DNA from: Dasania sp. GY-MA-18
GTDB taxonomy: Bacteria > Pseudomonadota > Gammaproteobacteria > Pseudomonadales > Dasaniaceae
DNA length: 64,000 nucleotides
NCBI RefSeq assembly: GCF_024734385.1
Contig: NZ_JANHAP010000002.1
Location: forward strand, 124,001 to 188,000
Direction: 5' to 3'
Positions within the stretch are counted from its first letter, which is position 1. Every line of letters starts with the position of its first letter. The notes below the pieces were generated by a model. It was given only the letters and a program-made list of their open reading frames with translations, did not search any database and was not told the origin of the DNA. A program made the translations under genes and the position numbers. This document shows positions 31,496 through 44,050 of this stretch, piece after piece.

Positions 31496-31594
31496 CGCTT
31501 TTAGCTGCTGTGCAGCTATTAAATTCTTGGTTATTCCTAAATCATCTTCTTTAGTTAGCGCGATTTTGCGGGTATTAAACAAAGACGTTTCCGC

Positions 31595-31795
31595 GTTGGC
31601 ATTATTAGAAGTTTTAAATCCGGCAATGCCACAAGCTCATTGCTCCATGATGGCGGCGCTGTTCTGCAGGTGGCGGGCTACCCTCACTCCCACCTGAGCC
31701 CGTCTCCCCTGAGGGGAAAGCAGCCGGTCTCAGTCGCTCACTCAGCGCTCATCTTTTATATTCCGCAATAACCTTCAGCCATTATCTGCCTATCG
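31595..31795 (+). repeat. Repeat module A, copy 1
   Basis: 201 bp, from GTTGGCATTATTAGAAG to TATCG. It matches A2-A4 through most of its length but has a longer, divergent hairpin section after GGCGGC. Recognisable parts: hairpin GCAATG/CATTGC, long stem CCTGAGCCCG/CGGTCTCAG enclosing TCCCC/GGGGA, hairpin near CTCAGCGC, and tail ATCTTTTATATTCCGCAATAA. Confidence 0.9.
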
Positions 31796-31839
31796 CATGG
31801 TATTAGAGTACAGTTTTCTTAACTGCAGAGTCAGAATTC

Positions 31840-31997
31840 GCACGATAGCAGAGGGCTGAGCCGGGTGCTGTCGCGAAATATAAGAGGGCTGGCCGTGGTA
31901 GCGGATGAGACAGCGTAGTGCTTTAAGGCTCAGTAGCGGACACGGGTACCCCGGAGGGGCCAGACCATGTAGCGACAGTATCCGGCTCAGCCATCGG
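31840..31997 (+). repeat. Repeat module B, copy 1 (short form)
   Basis: 158 bp, GCACGAT to CCATCGG. Basal stem 31854-31874 pairs with 31972-31992 over 21 positions. An inner stem CTGGCC/GGCCAG follows. The apical part has the short hairpin form CCCCGGAGGGG. Confidence 0.9.
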
Positions 31998-32053
31998 AGG
32001 TTAATAAACTATTGTGTGGCTTAAGTTGTTCTTGGCAAAAAAGAATCTTACCT

Positions 32054-32242
32054 GTTGGCATAATTAGAAGTTTTAAATCCGGCAATGGCACAAGGTCATT
32101 GCTCCATGATGGCGGCCTTCCAGGCTACCTTCACTCCCGCCTGAGCCCGTCTCCCCTGCGGGGAAAGCAGTCGGTCTCAGGCGCTCCTTCAGCGCTCATC
32201 TTTTATATTCCGCAATAACCTTCTGCCATTACCTGCCTATCG
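32054..32242 (+). repeat. Repeat module A, copy 2
   Basis: 189 bp. Starts GTTGGCATAATTAGAAG, starts 459 bases after A1. Contains hairpins GCAATG/CATTGC, GGCGGCC/GGCTACC (one mismatch), GCCTGAGCCCG/CGGTCTCAGGC around TCCCC/GGGGA, and GCGCT/AGCGC. Confidence 0.9.
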
Positions 32243-32287
32243 TAGTACATCAAAGTACATATTTTTTACCGGAAGCAGTAAACGCTA

Positions 32288-32459
32288 GCACGATGCACGA
32301 GGGTTGAGCCGGGTGCTGTCGCGAAATATAAGAGGGCTGGCCGGGGTAGCGGATGAGACAGCGTAGCGCCTTAAGGCTCAGTAGCGGACGCGGGCGTCTT
32401 TTTAGATAAAGGGCGGAGGGGCCAGGCTATGTAGCGGCGGCATCCGGCTCAGCCATCGG
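32288..32459 (+). repeat. Repeat module B, copy 2 (long form)
   Basis: 172 bp. Basal stem 32302-32322 with 32434-32454, all 21 positions pairing when G-U is allowed. Here the apical hairpin is the long form CGTCTTTTTAGATAAAGGGCG instead of CCCCGGAGGGG. Followed by GCAAGTAAACCACTT, a tail shared with copy 5. Confidence 0.9.
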
Positions 32460-32496
32460 TGCAAGTAAACCACTTATTAAGCAAAGATTTCCAAGC

Positions 32497-32525
32497 AAAA
32501 AAAGCCCTTAGCTAAGTAAGGGCTT
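32497..32525 (-). terminator. Intrinsic terminator of ETF-QO
   Basis: On the minus strand: AAGCCCTTA, CTTAGC loop, TAAGGGCTT and a run of T (seven A on the plus strand at 32497-32503). It lies 15 bases beyond the ETF-QO stop. Confidence 0.88.
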
Positions 32526-32539
32526 CATCAAGATTGAGC

Positions 32540-34195
32540 TTACATATTAGGGTAATTGGGGCCGCCTAGGCCTTCGGGGGTTACCCATACGATATTTTGA
32601 CTAGGGTCTTTAATATCGCAGGTCTTGCAGTGTACGCAGTTTTGGCCGTTGATCTGAAAACGCTGTTCGCCATTGTCGTCACTCACTACCTCATAGACGC
32701 CGGCCGGGCAGTAGCGCTGCGCAGGCTCGTCGTATAAGGGCAGGTTATAGCTAATGGGTATGCTGGCATCTTTTAAGGTTAGATGGCAGGGCTGGTCTTC
32801 TTCGTGGTTGGTGTTGGACAAAAACACCGAGCTTAAGCGGTCAAAGCTAATGACGCCATCGGGTTTGGGGTAATCGATTTTTTTGCTCTGGGCTGCGGGC
32901 TTCATCTGTTCGTGGTCAGGCTTGCTGTCTGACAGGGTCCAGGGCAGGCTGCCGTTAAACAGGTTGATGTCGATAAAAGCGTAAGCCGAACCGACTAAAT
33001 TACCCCATTTGTGCTGAGCGGGGCCAAAGTTGCGCTGGGCTTTGAGCTCTTTATACAGCCAAGAGCTTTCAAAAGCTTGGGTGTATTCGGTCAATTCTTG
33101 GCCGTCTTTTTGCTCTTGGGTGATGGCTGCGTGTACAGTTTCCGCAGCAATCATGCCTGATTTCATGGCGGTGTGGCTGCCTTTGATTTTGGCGAAATTC
33201 AATGTGCCAGCGTCACAGCCAATTAATAAGCCGCCGGGAAAAGTCATCTTGGGTAGCGACTGCAGGCCGCCCTTGGCGATGGCTCTGGCGCCATAAGATA
33301 GCCGTTCGCCGCCCTCCAAAATGCTCTTAACCGCAGGGTGCTGCTTAAAGCGCTGAAACTCTTCGAAAGGGCTAACATGGGGATTGCTATAACCTAAATC
33401 GGTGATTAGGCCTAGCGAGACCTGATTGTCTTCTACGTGGTAGAGAAAGCCGCCACCAAAACTACCGCTTTCGGTGAGTGGCCAGCCGGTGGAGTGAAAC
33501 ACCTTACCTTGCTGGTGTTTGTCGTCCGCTATTTTCCAGATCTCTTTAATGCCTAGGCCGTAGTGCTGGGGGTCTTTGCCGGCATCTAGCTGAAACTGCT
33601 CAATGATTTGCTTGCCTAAATGGCCTCGGCAGCCTTCGGAGAATAGGGTGTATTTGGCGTGTAGTTCCATGCCTTCGGTGTAGCTGTCTTTATGGCTGCC
33701 ATCTTCGGCTACGCCCATATCGCCGGTGGCTATACCTTTAACGCGGCCATCTTCGTGGTAGAGCACCTCGGCGGCGGCAAAGCCGGGGTAAATCTCGGCA
33801 CCCAGCTCTTCGGCTTGTTCTGCCAGCCAGCGGCAGAGGTTACCCAGGCTGATAATATAATTGCCTTCATTGTGCATGGTTTTGGGTACGGCCCAGCCCG
33901 GTACGCCTATGCTTTTCTCGGCGCTGGTCATATAGCAAATTTCGTCGTGGCTGACCTTGGTGTGCAAGGGCGCGCCTTTGTCGCTCCAGTCAGGGAATAG
34001 TTCATTGAGGGCTGTGGGTTCAAAGACCGCACCAGAGAGTATATGGGCACCAACCTCTGAACCTTTCTCAACCACGCAAACGCTAATATCGTTGCCGGTC
34101 TCTAAGCTAAGCTGGCGTATGCGGCAGGCTGCTGATAGGCCAGCAGGGCCTGCGCCGACGATGACAACGTCGAACTCCATTGATTCTCTTTCCAC
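32540..34195 (-). CDS. Electron transfer flavoprotein-ubiquinone oxidoreductase
   Basis: 551-residue ETF-QO, which passes electrons from ETF to ubiquinone at the inner membrane. FAD motif 'DVVIVGAGPAGLSAACRI', 'GAHILSGAVFEP' and the 4Fe-4S ferredoxin-like end with 'YCPAGVYEV' and 'NCVHCKTCDIKDPSQNIVW' are clear. I prefer GTG 34195 (protein starts MERESMEFDVV, as in Pseudomonas) because an AGAGGA site sits seven bases upstream; ATG 34180 and 34219 are alternatives. It is divergent from etfBA, which encode its electron donor. Confidence 0.95.
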   Translation of the reverse strand: MERESMEFDVVIVGAGPAGLSAACRIRQLSLETGNDISVCVVEKGSEVGAHILSGAVFEPTALNELFPDWSDKGAPLHTKVSHDEICYMTSAEKSIGVPGWAVPKTMHNEGNYIISLGNLCRWLAEQAEELGAEIYPGFAAAEVLYHEDGRVKGIATGDMGVAEDGSHKDSYTEGMELHAKYTLFSEGCRGHLGKQIIEQFQLDAGKDPQHYGLGIKEIWKIADDKHQQGKVFHSTGWPLTESGSFGGGFLYHVEDNQVSLGLITDLGYSNPHVSPFEEFQRFKQHPAVKSILEGGERLSYGARAIAKGGLQSLPKMTFPGGLLIGCDAGTLNFAKIKGSHTAMKSGMIAAETVHAAITQEQKDGQELTEYTQAFESSWLYKELKAQRNFGPAQHKWGNLVGSAYAFIDINLFNGSLPWTLSDSKPDHEQMKPAAQSKKIDYPKPDGVISFDRLSSVFLSNTNHEEDQPCHLTLKDASIPISYNLPLYDEPAQRYCPAGVYEVVSDDNGEQRFQINGQNCVHCKTCDIKDPSQNIVWVTPEGLGGPNYPNM

Positions 34196-35235: not shown

Positions 35236-36164
35236 TGAGTATTTTAATCTTAGCTGAACACGATAACGCTTCTATTAATGCGGCCACTTTAAATACTGTT
35301 GCCTGTGCGCAACAAATCGGTGGTGATATTACTTTATTGGTTGCCGGTGCTGATTGCGGCGCGGCGGCCGAGCAAGCGGCAAAAATTAACGGCGTAGCTA
35401 AAGTGTTAGTGGCTGACAATGCTGCCTATGCACATCAATTAGCAGAAAACGTCAGCCTGTTAATGGCTGAAGTTGCCAAAGATTATGGCTACGTATTAGC
35501 GGCAGCCACCACTACAGGTAAAAACATTTTGCCTCGCGTTGCGGCTTTACTGGATGTGGCACAAATATCCGATGTTACTGGCGTAGTTAGTGCCGATACG
35601 TTTAAGCACCCCATTTATGCGGGCAATATGATAGAGACGGTACAGTCTGCCGATGCGATTAAGGTCTTAACCGTACGCGGTACAGCCTTTGATGCGGTAG
35701 CTGCTGAAGGCGGCTCTGCCAGTGTAGAGAGTTTATCTGCAGTTCACGATGCCGGTATTTCTAGCTTTGTGGGTGAAGAGTTAGCGGTTAGCGATAGGCC
35801 AGAATTAACAGCGGCCTCTATCGTTATTTCCGGCGGTCGCGGTATGCAAAATGGCGAAAACTTTGCGCTGCTAGAGTCGGTTGCTGATAAGCTTGGTGCT
35901 GCGGTAGGTGCTTCACGCGCAGCAGTAGACGCAGGCTTTGTACCTAACGATATGCAAGTTGGCCAAACCGGTAAAATCGTGGCGCCTAATCTGTATATTG
36001 CTGTAGGTATCTCTGGTGCTATTCAACATTTAGCCGGTATGAAAGACAGCAAGGTGATTGTTGCTATCAATAAAGATGAAGATGCACCGATTTTTCAGGT
36101 AGCCGATTACGGTTTAGTGGCTGATTTATTTGAGGCAGTGCCTGAGTTAAACAACGCTTTATAA
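35235..36164 (+). CDS. etfA: Electron transfer flavoprotein alpha subunit
   Basis: 309-residue EtfA: '[20 protein letters not shown]' at the start, and the C-terminal FAD-binding signature '[18 protein letters not shown]' followed by '[21 protein letters not shown]' region. It is coupled to etfB by a one-base overlap. A strong terminator follows at 36183-36222. Confidence 0.97.
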
Positions 36165-36182
36165 GCTTTGGTTTACTGTTTA

Positions 36183-36222
36183 AAAAAACCGCCCAGCTTT
36201 TAACAAAAGCTGGGCGGTTTTT
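36183..36222 (+). terminator. Intrinsic terminator of etfBA
   Basis: Near-perfect stem AACCGCCCAGCTTTT / AAAAGCTGGGCGGTT with an AAC loop, A-rich before and T-rich after. Usable in both directions. Confidence 0.93.
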
Positions 36223-36302
36223 GTTTGTGGGTTTTAAATCTAATAATCCTCTGTGATTACGCGCTTCGTAGTGCATATTTATTTTAATAATCTTAAAAAA
36301 TA

Positions 36303-36475
36303 GCACGATGCGAGAGGGCTGGGCCGGGTGCTGTCGCGAAATATAAGAGGGCTGGCCGGGGTAGCGGATGAGACAGCGTAGCGCCTTAAGGCTCAGTAGC
36401 GGACACGGGCGTCTTTTTAGATAAAGGGGGGGAGGGGCCAGACCATGCAGCGGCGGCATCCGGATCAGCCGTCGG
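36303..36475 (+). repeat. Repeat module B, copy 3 (long form)
   Basis: 173 bp from GCACGATGCGAGAGG to GTCGG. The basal stem GGCTGGGCCGGGTGCTGTCGC region pairs with GCGGCGGCATCCGGATCAGCC region, 20 of 21 positions. It carries the long apical form CGTCTTTTTAGATAAAGG. Confidence 0.9.
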
Positions 36476-36539
36476 AGTTAGTAAGCCACTGTGCTGGTCT
36501 AGAACGTTCCCAGAAAAAACAAAACCGGAAGCTTAGCTG

Positions 36540-36727
36540 CTGGGATAGTTAGAAGTTCTTAATCCGGCAATGGCACAAGGTCATTGCTCCATGATGGCGG
36601 CCCTCCGGGCTGCCTTCACTCCCGCCTGAGCCCGTCTCCCCTGCGGTGAAAACAGTCGGTCTCAGGAGCTCACTCAGCGCTCATCTTTTATATTCCGCAA
36701 TAACCTTCTGCCATTACCTGCCTATCG
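36540..36727 (+). repeat. Repeat module A, copy 3
   Basis: 188 bp. Hairpins GCAATG/CATTGC, GGCGGCC/GGCTGCC, and the CCTGAGCCCG/CGGTCTCAGG stem are kept. The A-to-B spacer that follows is of the TTAGAGTRNAGTTTTCTTAACTG type. Confidence 0.9.
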
Positions 36728-36773
36728 CGGTGGCATTAGAGTGAAGTTTTCTTAACTGAAAAAATAATAATTA

Positions 36774-36945
36774 GCACGATGCCAGAGGGCTGAGCCGGGT
36801 GCTGTCGCGGAATATAAGAGGGCTGGCCGTGGTAGCGGATGAGACAGCGCAGCGCTTTAAGGCTCAGTAGCGGACACGGGCGTCTTTTTAGATAAAGGGG
36901 GGAGGGGACAGACCATGTAGCGACAGTATCCGGCTCAGCCATCGG
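36774..36945 (+). repeat. Repeat module B, copy 4 (long form)
   Basis: 172 bp, starting GCACGATGCCAGAGG. Basal stem fully paired as in copy 1, but the apical hairpin is the long form, so it combines the stem type of copy 1 with the loop type of copies 2 and 3. Confidence 0.9.
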
Positions 36946-36971
36946 GGCTAACAAACAATACATGCCGTTTC

Positions 36972-37004
36972 AAAAAAAAGCCCTCACCTAGATATAAGGG
37001 CTTT
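36972..37004 (-). terminator. Intrinsic terminator of antiporter gene
   Basis: Minus strand: AAAGCCCT, 12-base loop, AGGGCTTT and further T residues (eight A on the plus strand at 36972-36979). It lies about 15 bases beyond the antiporter stop. Confidence 0.85.
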
Positions 37005-37018
37005 ACCATTACTACCGT

Positions 37019-38188
37019 TTAATCCCGCCGTAGTTTGTCGTTTAAGGCGATAGGGGTGGGGTAGTTAAATATCACTATATAAGAAGAAATTAAGAAAGTG
37101 ATAATGGCTGTGGCCTGTATCAAGTGAGAGGCATTTTTGCCCAGTAGTGCGGCGTCAAAAGCAACAAAGGCGATAAGCAGTGAGAACTCGCTAATGGAGC
37201 CCAGGCGGAAGCCTATATCCCAGGCTAATACTTTTTTCTCGCTGGCGTTGCGTAATAAAAACTGAAAAATCACCGGCTTTAAAGTCAGCATTAAAGCGGC
37301 CAATACTACAGCAGGAATAATAATGTCGGCGAGCAGTGCTAAGTCAAAGCGTGCCCCCAGCGAAAAGAAAAACAAGATCAAGAAAAAATCCCGCAGTGGC
37401 TTTAAGTTAACTGCAATATATTGCGAGATGGGGCTGGTAGCTAAAGAAATACCGGCAATAAAAGCGCCTATTTCGGCAGAGAGGCCAACTTGGTGGGCGG
37501 CCTCGGCCAAGCCTAGGCACCAGCCCAGCGCTAATAAGAAAATGTATTCATGAAAGCGGTCAAATTTTTGTATGAGTTTAAGCAGCCCGTACTTAACAAA
37601 TAGCATGGATAGGGCGATAAATACCGGTAGTGCAGCAATGGTTTTTAACATCATGGTGATGTCAAACTGGCCCACGTCACCACTTAATAACACCAATAAA
37701 ACAAAAATGGCGATCACATCTTGCAGCAATAATAAGCTGATCATCATCTCGCCCATATGGCGGTGGTGCAGTATGGTGGTGGGTAATAATTTTATGCCTA
37801 TGATGGTGCTGGAAAACATCATGGCGGCACCAATAATAATTGACTCAGCTTGGCTAAAGCCAAAAGCGATGCTGACTACATAGCCTATGCCCATAAATGC
37901 CAATGAGCTGATGATGGCTATAGGCGTGGCTTTTTTCATGGTGCTAACTAGCGCTTGGGGTTGCATATCCAGCCCCAGTAAAAATAATAAAAAGATAATA
38001 CCTACATGGGAGATATCAGAGAGTAAGGCCAAGTCATTAACAAAATTCAGGCCGTAGGGGCCGATGATAGCGCCTAGAGCAATATAAGCGATCAGCAGAG
38101 GCTGCCGGGAGTACAGGGCTAGGGTGGCTAAAATAGCTGCACCGGTAAAAATCAAAAAGAAGGAAAAGGTGATACTGCTGGCATCCAT
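37019..38188 (-). CDS. CPA2-family cation:proton antiporter (Kef-like)
   Basis: 389-residue membrane protein with about twelve hydrophobic segments and the monovalent cation:proton antiporter-2 fold. 'YIALGAIIGPYGLNFV', 'LFLLGLDMQPQAL' and 'SAEIGAFIAGISLATSPI' are typical. It lacks the C-terminal TrkA-N/RCK regulatory domain found in KefB and KefC, so it is a membrane-only member. Ion specificity (K+ or Na+) is not shown. Confidence 0.9.
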   Translation of the reverse strand: MDASSITFSFFLIFTGAAILATLALYSRQPLLIAYIALGAIIGPYGLNFVNDLALLSDISHVGIIFLLFLLGLDMQPQALVSTMKKATPIAIISSLAFMGIGYVVSIAFGFSQAESIIIGAAMMFSSTIIGIKLLPTTILHHRHMGEMMISLLLLQDVIAIFVLLVLLSGDVGQFDITMMLKTIAALPVFIALSMLFVKYGLLKLIQKFDRFHEYIFLLALGWCLGLAEAAHQVGLSAEIGAFIAGISLATSPISQYIAVNLKPLRDFFLILFFFSLGARFDLALLADIIIPAVVLAALMLTLKPVIFQFLLRNASEKKVLAWDIGFRLGSISEFSLLIAFVAFDAALLGKNASHLIQATAIITFLISSYIVIFNYPTPIALNDKLRRD

Positions 38189-43444: not shown

Positions 43445-43601
43445 CGACGGCTGAGCCGGATGCTGTCGCTACATGGTCTGGCCTCTCCGGGGTGCCCGTG
43501 TCCGCTACTGAGCCTTAAAGCGCTGCGCTGTCTCATCCGCTACCACGGCCAGCCCTTTTATATTTCGCGACATCACCCGGCCCAGCCCTCTCGCATCGTG
43601 C
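43445..43601 (-). repeat. Repeat module B, copy 5 (short form, inverted)
   Basis: 157 bp on the minus strand, GCACGATGCGAGAGG to the GTCG end. Basal stem 20 of 21 paired. Short apical form CCCCGGAGAGG. Its 3' flank GCAAGTAAACCA matches the flank of copy 2. Confidence 0.9.
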
Positions 43602-43647: not shown

Positions 43648-43836
43648 CGGTAGGCAGGTGATGGCAGAAGGTTATTGCGGAATATAAAAGATGAGCGCTG
43701 AGTGAGCGCCTGAGACCGGCTGCTTTCCCCGCAGGGGTGTCGGGCTCAGGCGGGAGTGAAGGCAGCCTGGAAGGCCGCCATCATGGAGCAATGACCTTGT
43801 GCCATTGCCAGATTTAAAGCTTCTAACTATGCCAAC
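43648..43836 (-). repeat. Repeat module A, copy 4 (inverted)
   Basis: 189 bp on the minus strand. Same hairpin set as A2. The following spacer (TAGTACATCAAAGTACAT then a T run) is nearly identical to that after A2 for its first half. Confidence 0.9.
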
Positions 43837-43892: not shown

Positions 43893-44050
43893 CCGATGGC
43901 TGAGCCGGATGCCGCCGCTACATGGTCTGTCCCCTCCGGGGTACCCGCGTCCGCTACTGAGCCTTAAGGCGCTACGCTGTCTCATCCGCTACCCCGGCCA
44001 GCCCTCTTATATTTCGCGACAGCACCCGGCTCACCCCTCTGGCATCGTGC
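43893..44050 (-). repeat. Repeat module B, copy 6 (short form, inverted)
   Basis: 158 bp on the minus strand, GCACGATGCCAGAGG to ATCGG. Basal stem 20 of 21 paired. Short apical form CCCCGGAGGGG. Its 3' flank GTTAGTAAGCCGCTG matches the flank of copy 3. Confidence 0.9.

Follow-up and report, generated by a model that had tools for sequence, protein, structure and literature searches.

The window analysed here, a 64,000-nucleotide stretch of a Dasania sp. GY-MA-18 contig, contains three clusters of two kinds of repeated module, A and B, whose strands read −+−+, +−+ and −+− along the sequence. Modules were scored with model R1, which contained A-type rows, and, because of that inclusion, also with R3, a covariance model built from B and its foreign relatives with zero A-type rows. 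Cluster 1 begins with A1 (31623..31786, A-type in reverse orientation, minus strand; R1 80.9 bits, R3 31.3 bits with E 1.1e-4), followed by B1 (31853..31992, plus strand; R1 135 bits), A2 (32082..32233, minus strand, on which it forms its own ~22-bp basal stem; R3 65.7 bits) and B2 (32301..32454, plus strand; R1 111.7 bits). Cluster 2 consists of two plus-strand B modules (36316..36470 and 36787..36940) on either side of a minus-strand A module (36567..36718; R3 64.0 bits), and in cluster 3 two minus-strand B modules (43449..43588 and 43898..44037) enclose a plus-strand A module (43657..43808; R3 63.1 bits). In these two clusters the B modules were recognised by stem pairing and R1, and the A modules by their basal stem, R1 and R3.

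Each B module is closed by a long basal stem. In B1, positions 31854-31874 pair with 31972-31992 at 21 of 21 positions, two of the pairs being G-T, and in B2 32302-32322 pair with 32434-32454, again at 21 of 21, with four G-T pairs. The remaining four copies in the window retain 20, 21, 20 and 20 of 21 pairs, which bears out the claim of the initial annotation that all six keep at least 20. Summed over these six copies, the stems contain 17 G-T and 0 A-C oppositions. The window's genome (3.8 Mb, 21 contigs) yields 20 alignable B copies from 11 places, one of them with an internal deletion; 403 of their 420 basal-stem cells are paired (345 Watson-Crick and 58 G-T), with 2 A-C and 15 other combinations, and the number of paired cells falls to 130-210 when the partner is shifted by 1-3 columns. 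One transition is enough to turn a Watson-Crick pair into either G-T or A-C, and the 29:1 ratio of the two in these stems points to selection for pairing on one strand. On that strand B1 folds at -74.6 kcal/mol (z -5.6), as opposed to -59.2 (z -4.8) on the other; for a 150-nt part of B2 the values are -68.6 (z -3.7) and -42.4 (z -1.5). An 18-base core pattern, with at most three mismatches allowed, is found at six places in the window, where 0.02 would be expected. These observations support selection on one strand, that of the B orientation, in its folded single-stranded form. The covariation suggested as a check on genome-wide B copies is thin inside this genome (3 of 39 predicted pairs) and strong only across genera.

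The annotation had further held that G-U pairs fit only the strand read from A to B. This is right for B, but an equivalent bias appears in the A modules when the other strand is read, where their own ~22-bp basal stem (15 copies, 330 cells) contains 279 Watson-Crick pairs, 26 G-T, 3 A-C and 22 other combinations. R3 detects all four window A modules at the scores given above, each on the strand opposite its B neighbours, and scores the six B modules at 103-135 bits in sense; for the three of these six with a listed antisense match, the values are 110-129 bits sense versus 19.5-26.4 antisense. The A copy at L049 retains the B core, reversed. A and B therefore represent two subtypes of a single element whose orientation alternates, with the halves of a unit using opposite strands. 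The idea of A as the second module of a single A-to-B RNA is thereby ruled out, A being an inverted member of B's own structured family, and each pair consequently presents one native fold per strand. The cautious form of the earlier structural inference was right; its anatomy was wrong.

Across this scattered family, found in marine bacteria, the elements (112-169 nt; 158 used) combine a basal stem of ~21 bp with an internal loop, a second stem, which is short, and a junction bearing a G.A-stepped arm and a GGA-triloop hairpin; for counting, the structure was treated as five stems, with the P5 hairpin entered as two. Conservation is highest in the internal part and not at the ends. Basal-stem sequences are wholly different between genera through compensatory changes, while the G.A step and the GGA-triloop hairpin are retained. 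In this way the core persists beside unrelated basal stems in G004 and G005, from another genus of the window's family, and in members from f32 and f41; the stem at L088, 28 bp long, is perfect. Among 13 diverse members, 97.3% of cells are paired and 23 of 32 pairs have changed on both sides, compared with 72.6% and 16.0 in shuffles. Among 150 matches, whose alignment was fitted to a related structure, 92.9% of 5418 cells are paired versus 60.5% after shuffling (94.2% in the basal stem), 1702 cells versus 513 have changed on both sides, the covariation score is 0.782 versus 0.203, and pairing drops to 38-49% when the partner is slid. The count of pairs with two-sided changes, 35 of 37 against a shuffled mean of 32.7 (5 of 500 shuffles reach 35), is uninformative here because 150 diverse rows saturate the measure. 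The fold is conserved under near-total sequence turnover.

A non-redundant set was obtained by removing three A7 rows (two antisense duplicates and one truncated) and then 77 by redundancy, which reduced 147 members to 70 at <85% identity. In this set the columns with the highest covariation scores fall mostly within the basal stem and inner helices, and the G.A/A.G step is flanked by conserved pairs. The G-T:A-C polarity is 94:19 in the basal stem, 37:6 in P3 and 14:3 in P4; a larger untrimmed count of 151:15 includes three antisense duplicates. Polarity is absent from P2 (13 G-T versus 18 A-C), and the P5 column pairs as listed give 18 G-T versus 61 A-C, of which two pairs contributing 10:60 were left out as unpaired and the four kept give 8:1. 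In 59 of the 70 members the P5 hairpin has a four-bp, three-nt shape, with 18 different stems and with the loop GGA in 55, GCA in one and GAA in one (57 of GNA type) and AGA in two; the other 11 adopt another shape. The P4 apical loop follows no single GNA rule. The earlier proposal named an RNA as the selected molecule and, failing that, any folded single strand; these polarities and the covariation score sustain the second, weaker half, and the strand may be RNA or DNA.

Elements usually come as head-to-head doublets, a reversed A-type with a forward B-type element, each ~140 nt, with 5′ ends 27-260 bp apart; tandem B-A-B-A-B arrays and single elements also occur. When the window genus and HTCC2143 are set aside, 30 pairs of neighbours lie within 450 bp of each other: 28 are arranged (−)(+) with their 5′ ends inward, none (+)(−), and two on the same strand; in the window genus and HTCC2143, 50 close pairs divide into 30 (−)(+), 19 (+)(−) array junctions and one same-strand pair. 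The two subtypes are joined in 11 of 11 doublets of Mangrovimicrobium sediminis (12 loci, one with a single element) and in 5 of 5 of G370, a wide pair at L184 included. In HTCC2143, A-like and B-like elements group with those of the window genus and two others do not; the tree, from which elements <110 nt and overlapping antisense matches were omitted, leaves the subtypes unseparated in f4, f40 and G353. More long hairpins stand ~90-110 bp outside the elements at eleven M. sediminis loci (L247, L254, L257-L259, L261, L262, L267, L270, L272 and L273), and while their stems vary, their loops are conserved, GAGCTTTTCGAAC on the outer side of one subtype and GAGCTTTTGGAGC-like on that of the other; the flank listing has the wrong subtype label for at least one row (L247_3136). 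Their exact motif has 9 occurrences, among the loci scanned only in M. sediminis.

Sites of the family lie preferentially between convergent genes: 48 of 67, compared with 57 of 373 for the remaining gaps of those loci. That figure counts orthologous sites of the window's genome and its congener G001 twice; it becomes 40 of 59 versus 55 of 337 without G001, and 31 of 48 versus 49 of 257 without both congeners. The counts also depend on the ORF rules, another count giving 34 of 51 convergent with two undecidable. Of 19 clusters in the two congeners, 9 have a terminator-like hairpin no more than 170 bp away on one or both sides (no control run), among them those in the window regions 31500-32540 and 36164-37019; such hairpins were also seen at two array-free G001 sites, L082 and L144. 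The arrays may be placed beside bidirectional terminators.

With R1, the family is found in at least 14 of 381 genomes of the window's order, the window's own included and the weakest being G244 with one match of 32.9 bits, and the remaining 367 have no match. In the class-wide search of 369 genomes with a wider model, R2, the listed matches fall in the window genome and one other; both searches applied strict filters and scored at most 8 candidates per genome, so that element counts are lower bounds. Within genus g3 elements occur in 2 of 7 genomes, and congener G001 has 13 matches to B. A core pattern with 19 fixed bases retrieves 37 stretches from a species-genome collection, all from HTCC2143, Mangrovimicrobium, Haliea, Oceanicoccus, Seongchinamella or a Cellvibrionales MAG. 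Eight matches to a pattern allowing three mismatches were rescanned with R2, which confirmed none of them; they look like chance. A single member of 68.7 bits in another order of the same class (G479:C19:100292-100425, L277) makes horizontal transfer possible. Viral, phage and plasmid collections yielded no copy at the DNA level, either by exact patterns or by blastn with B, which leaves an origin from phage, plasmid or virus unsupported. The covariance models of Rfam 15 give no match inside the element, apart from one at chance level (MIR1858, 20.6 bits versus 137 needed), and no description of this element family was found in the open-access literature. At L130-L132 and L134-L137, in G004 and G005, many copies sit at or near contig ends, which suggests that recent amplification left near-identical copies at which the assemblies broke.

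The location between convergent genes brings in the most serious competitor to a DNA-level explanation, a structured non-coding RNA or 3′-UTR element. Transcripts that leave the convergent genes, or that start at promoters in the spacers (read by eye only, in about twenty doublets), would carry folded B, or A, which would bind a protein, block exonucleases or stop antisense transcription. G-T tolerance and compensatory changes suit an RNA, and sites so placed would be passed by read-through; the distribution, however, is patchy even inside one genus, and no Rfam family corresponds. Tandem G.A steps are common in RNA; the conserved GGA triloop is a DNA-type loop. No reading direction is favoured, because the doublet has one copy on each strand. 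We consider such an RNA possible, although we doubt it.

Comparison of the window's genome with G001 shows that seven of its 11 clusters have a counterpart at the orthologous place, often with a different copy number. At the G001 sites of window clusters 1 and 3 and of L048 the flanks align with no element match listed between them, leaving 70, 103 and 272 bp between the alignable parts; the flanks of clusters 1 and 3 enclose a terminator-like hairpin, as judged by eye. No exact boundary or target duplication is readable in this comparison, because the intergenic DNA is too diverged, and the absence of the arrays from G001 may reflect loss there. Different array copy numbers at orthologous sites would also be expected of a BIME-like repeat of chromosome-architecture or transcription-insulator type that works through gyrase, IHF or termination, has multiplied by recombination, is held at gene ends by selection and is not mobile today. 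The convergent location and the nearby terminator-like hairpins agree with this, but basal stems that differ wholly between genera while the structure is retained do not, nor does the lack of a match, in the capped search, in 367 of 381 genomes of the order, and we judge the explanation improbable. An ordinary MITE, whose long inverted repeat would be a terminal inverted repeat bound as double-stranded DNA with its two ends co-evolving, is very improbable: a near-perfect inverted repeat covaries anyway, as 94.2% pairing of the basal stem illustrates, but double-strand selection predicts equal numbers of G-T and A-C instead of 94:19 and 58:2, and here the internal part rather than the ends is most conserved and the inner helices covary too.

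One locus may carry cargo. In G370, L184:1183-5129 is an AT-rich segment of 3.9 kb delimited by one element of each subtype; the two are head to head and 3.4 kb apart. Between them the GC content is 41.7%, versus 55% and 53% in the neighbouring genes, and three ORFs are present, none with a Pfam family at its cut-off. In the congener G353, the only one of nine genomes searched with both neighbour genes on one contig, these genes are ~110 bp apart without the segment. This one case may represent foreign DNA inserted into an existing spacer, or loss in G353. A second candidate, two elements around a hydrolase-like gene at L181 (G056), proved uninformative, as only one flanking gene was matched in G012 and the GC content is not deviant.

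The search for a mobilising enzyme gave no recurring mobility gene among the 40 largest clusters of ORFs near elements, which by eye comprised element-overlapping ORFs and large families (ORFs of at least 80 aa, loci under 19 genome labels, all against all). A RAYT/Y1 transposase as the mover is unsupported. Y1 genes were sought in 32 genomes and 48 Y1 places listed; 31 Y1 stretches, representing 30 distinct loci (L079 and L089 are the same gene of the window's genome), 16 of the 30 in genomes with an R1 match, were scanned for elements and gave one weak match of 21.9 bits, not repeated by R2 at E<=0.1. The draft genomes G002, G004, G005 and G383 bear elements and have no Y1_Tnp match. The window's genome itself encodes a 237-aa, RAYT-like Y1 transposase with its own inverted ends (L089:3700-4760, contig C9), and by eye these ends look unlike the A and B modules.

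The literature on REPINs and BIMEs describes inverted, spaced, extragenic doublets with compensatory folding, alternating arrays and singlets as likely remnants, with a preference for convergent or unidirectional gaps and with G-T pairs in the stems (PMC3116915, PMC2817692, PMC6006769, PMC3733652). The present family likewise has inverted, extragenic doublets of related elements with a spacer, folds maintained by compensatory changes, alternating arrays, singlets, a preference for convergent gaps and stem G-T pairs. Unlike the 21-65-nt hairpin of a REP or REPIN, each half is 112-169 nt long with several helices, and each doublet combines two subtypes. A 5′ GT[AG]G foot is not above chance (GTAG in 11 and GTGG in 6 of 158 elements; shuffled means 12.2 and 15.9), and no tnpA_REP/RAYT was found beside family elements in the 30 distinct Y1 loci scanned. 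The missing foot is not decisive alone, because some RAYT subclasses have atypical structures or other feet, according to one of these sources. We report the family as a variant of REPINs and not as a member: it works like a REPIN yet departs from typical REP/RAYT systems in size, guide tetranucleotide and attached transposase.

Other known repeats and hairpins resemble it in part. ERIC/RU-type MITE-like repeats are intergenic units of 103-168 bp (PMC2759123). The present family is also intergenic, with a similar unit length. To our knowledge, ERIC/RU and other MITE-like repeats are not strand-polar hetero-doublets with a conserved multi-helix core. The Streptomyces telomere and parvovirus hairpins are DNA hairpins closed by sheared G-A pairing, with GCA loops and a 'rabbit ear' shape (PMC4513846); these are ends of linear replicons whereas our elements are chromosomal and dispersed, and the analogy is one of folding only. 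The ends of IS200/IS605 carry subterminal secondary structures recognised in single-stranded DNA (PMC6006769). In our family, unlike IS200/IS605, the halves are inverted relative to each other and no Y1 transposase was found attached. Nor was a transposase gene found between the ends: no mobility gene recurs in the 40 largest ORF clusters, and the three ORFs of the long-spaced L184 pair lack a Pfam family at its cut-off.

Based on the above data, we propose, with a confidence that is about even, that B1 and B2 are half-units of a REPIN-like mobile repeat recognised as folded single-stranded DNA. The doublet would be the moving unit, now or formerly. A nuclease acting in trans would recognise the hairpins as folded single strands, for example during replication, and the gaps between convergent genes would be places where insertions are tolerated or favoured. 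GGA and GNA triloops with G.A steps are also stable DNA motifs, and their presence, by analogy with Streptomyces telomeres (PMC4513846), favours DNA here without proving it. A doublet moved as a unit by an enzyme acting in trans has been proposed for REPINs (PMC3116915). Counting against the proposal are the unsuccessful search for such an enzyme in the loci and clusters scanned, the unreadable boundaries and target duplications, the missing polarity of P2, the existence of single elements and the lack of copies in the viral, phage and plasmid collections. More tentatively, and we think this unlikely, the doublet could be the end pair of a class of single-stranded-DNA mobile element not yet described, consisting of two different branched hairpins with GGA triloops and G.A steps, usually a cargo-less miniature, able to carry genes as in the 3.9-kb insert at L184, and moved by a nuclease other than a known Y1 transposase.

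What stands out in this family is a large folded-strand architecture that persists through the exchange of nearly every letter of its main stem, and whose strand polarity is not explained by simple recognition of double strands. If the repeat is mobile, it points to a trans-acting enzyme working on branched single-stranded hairpins, and whether REP-like repeats act as RNA or as single-stranded DNA could be tested with marine strains in culture, for instance Mangrovimicrobium sediminis SAOS 164 and HTCC2143.
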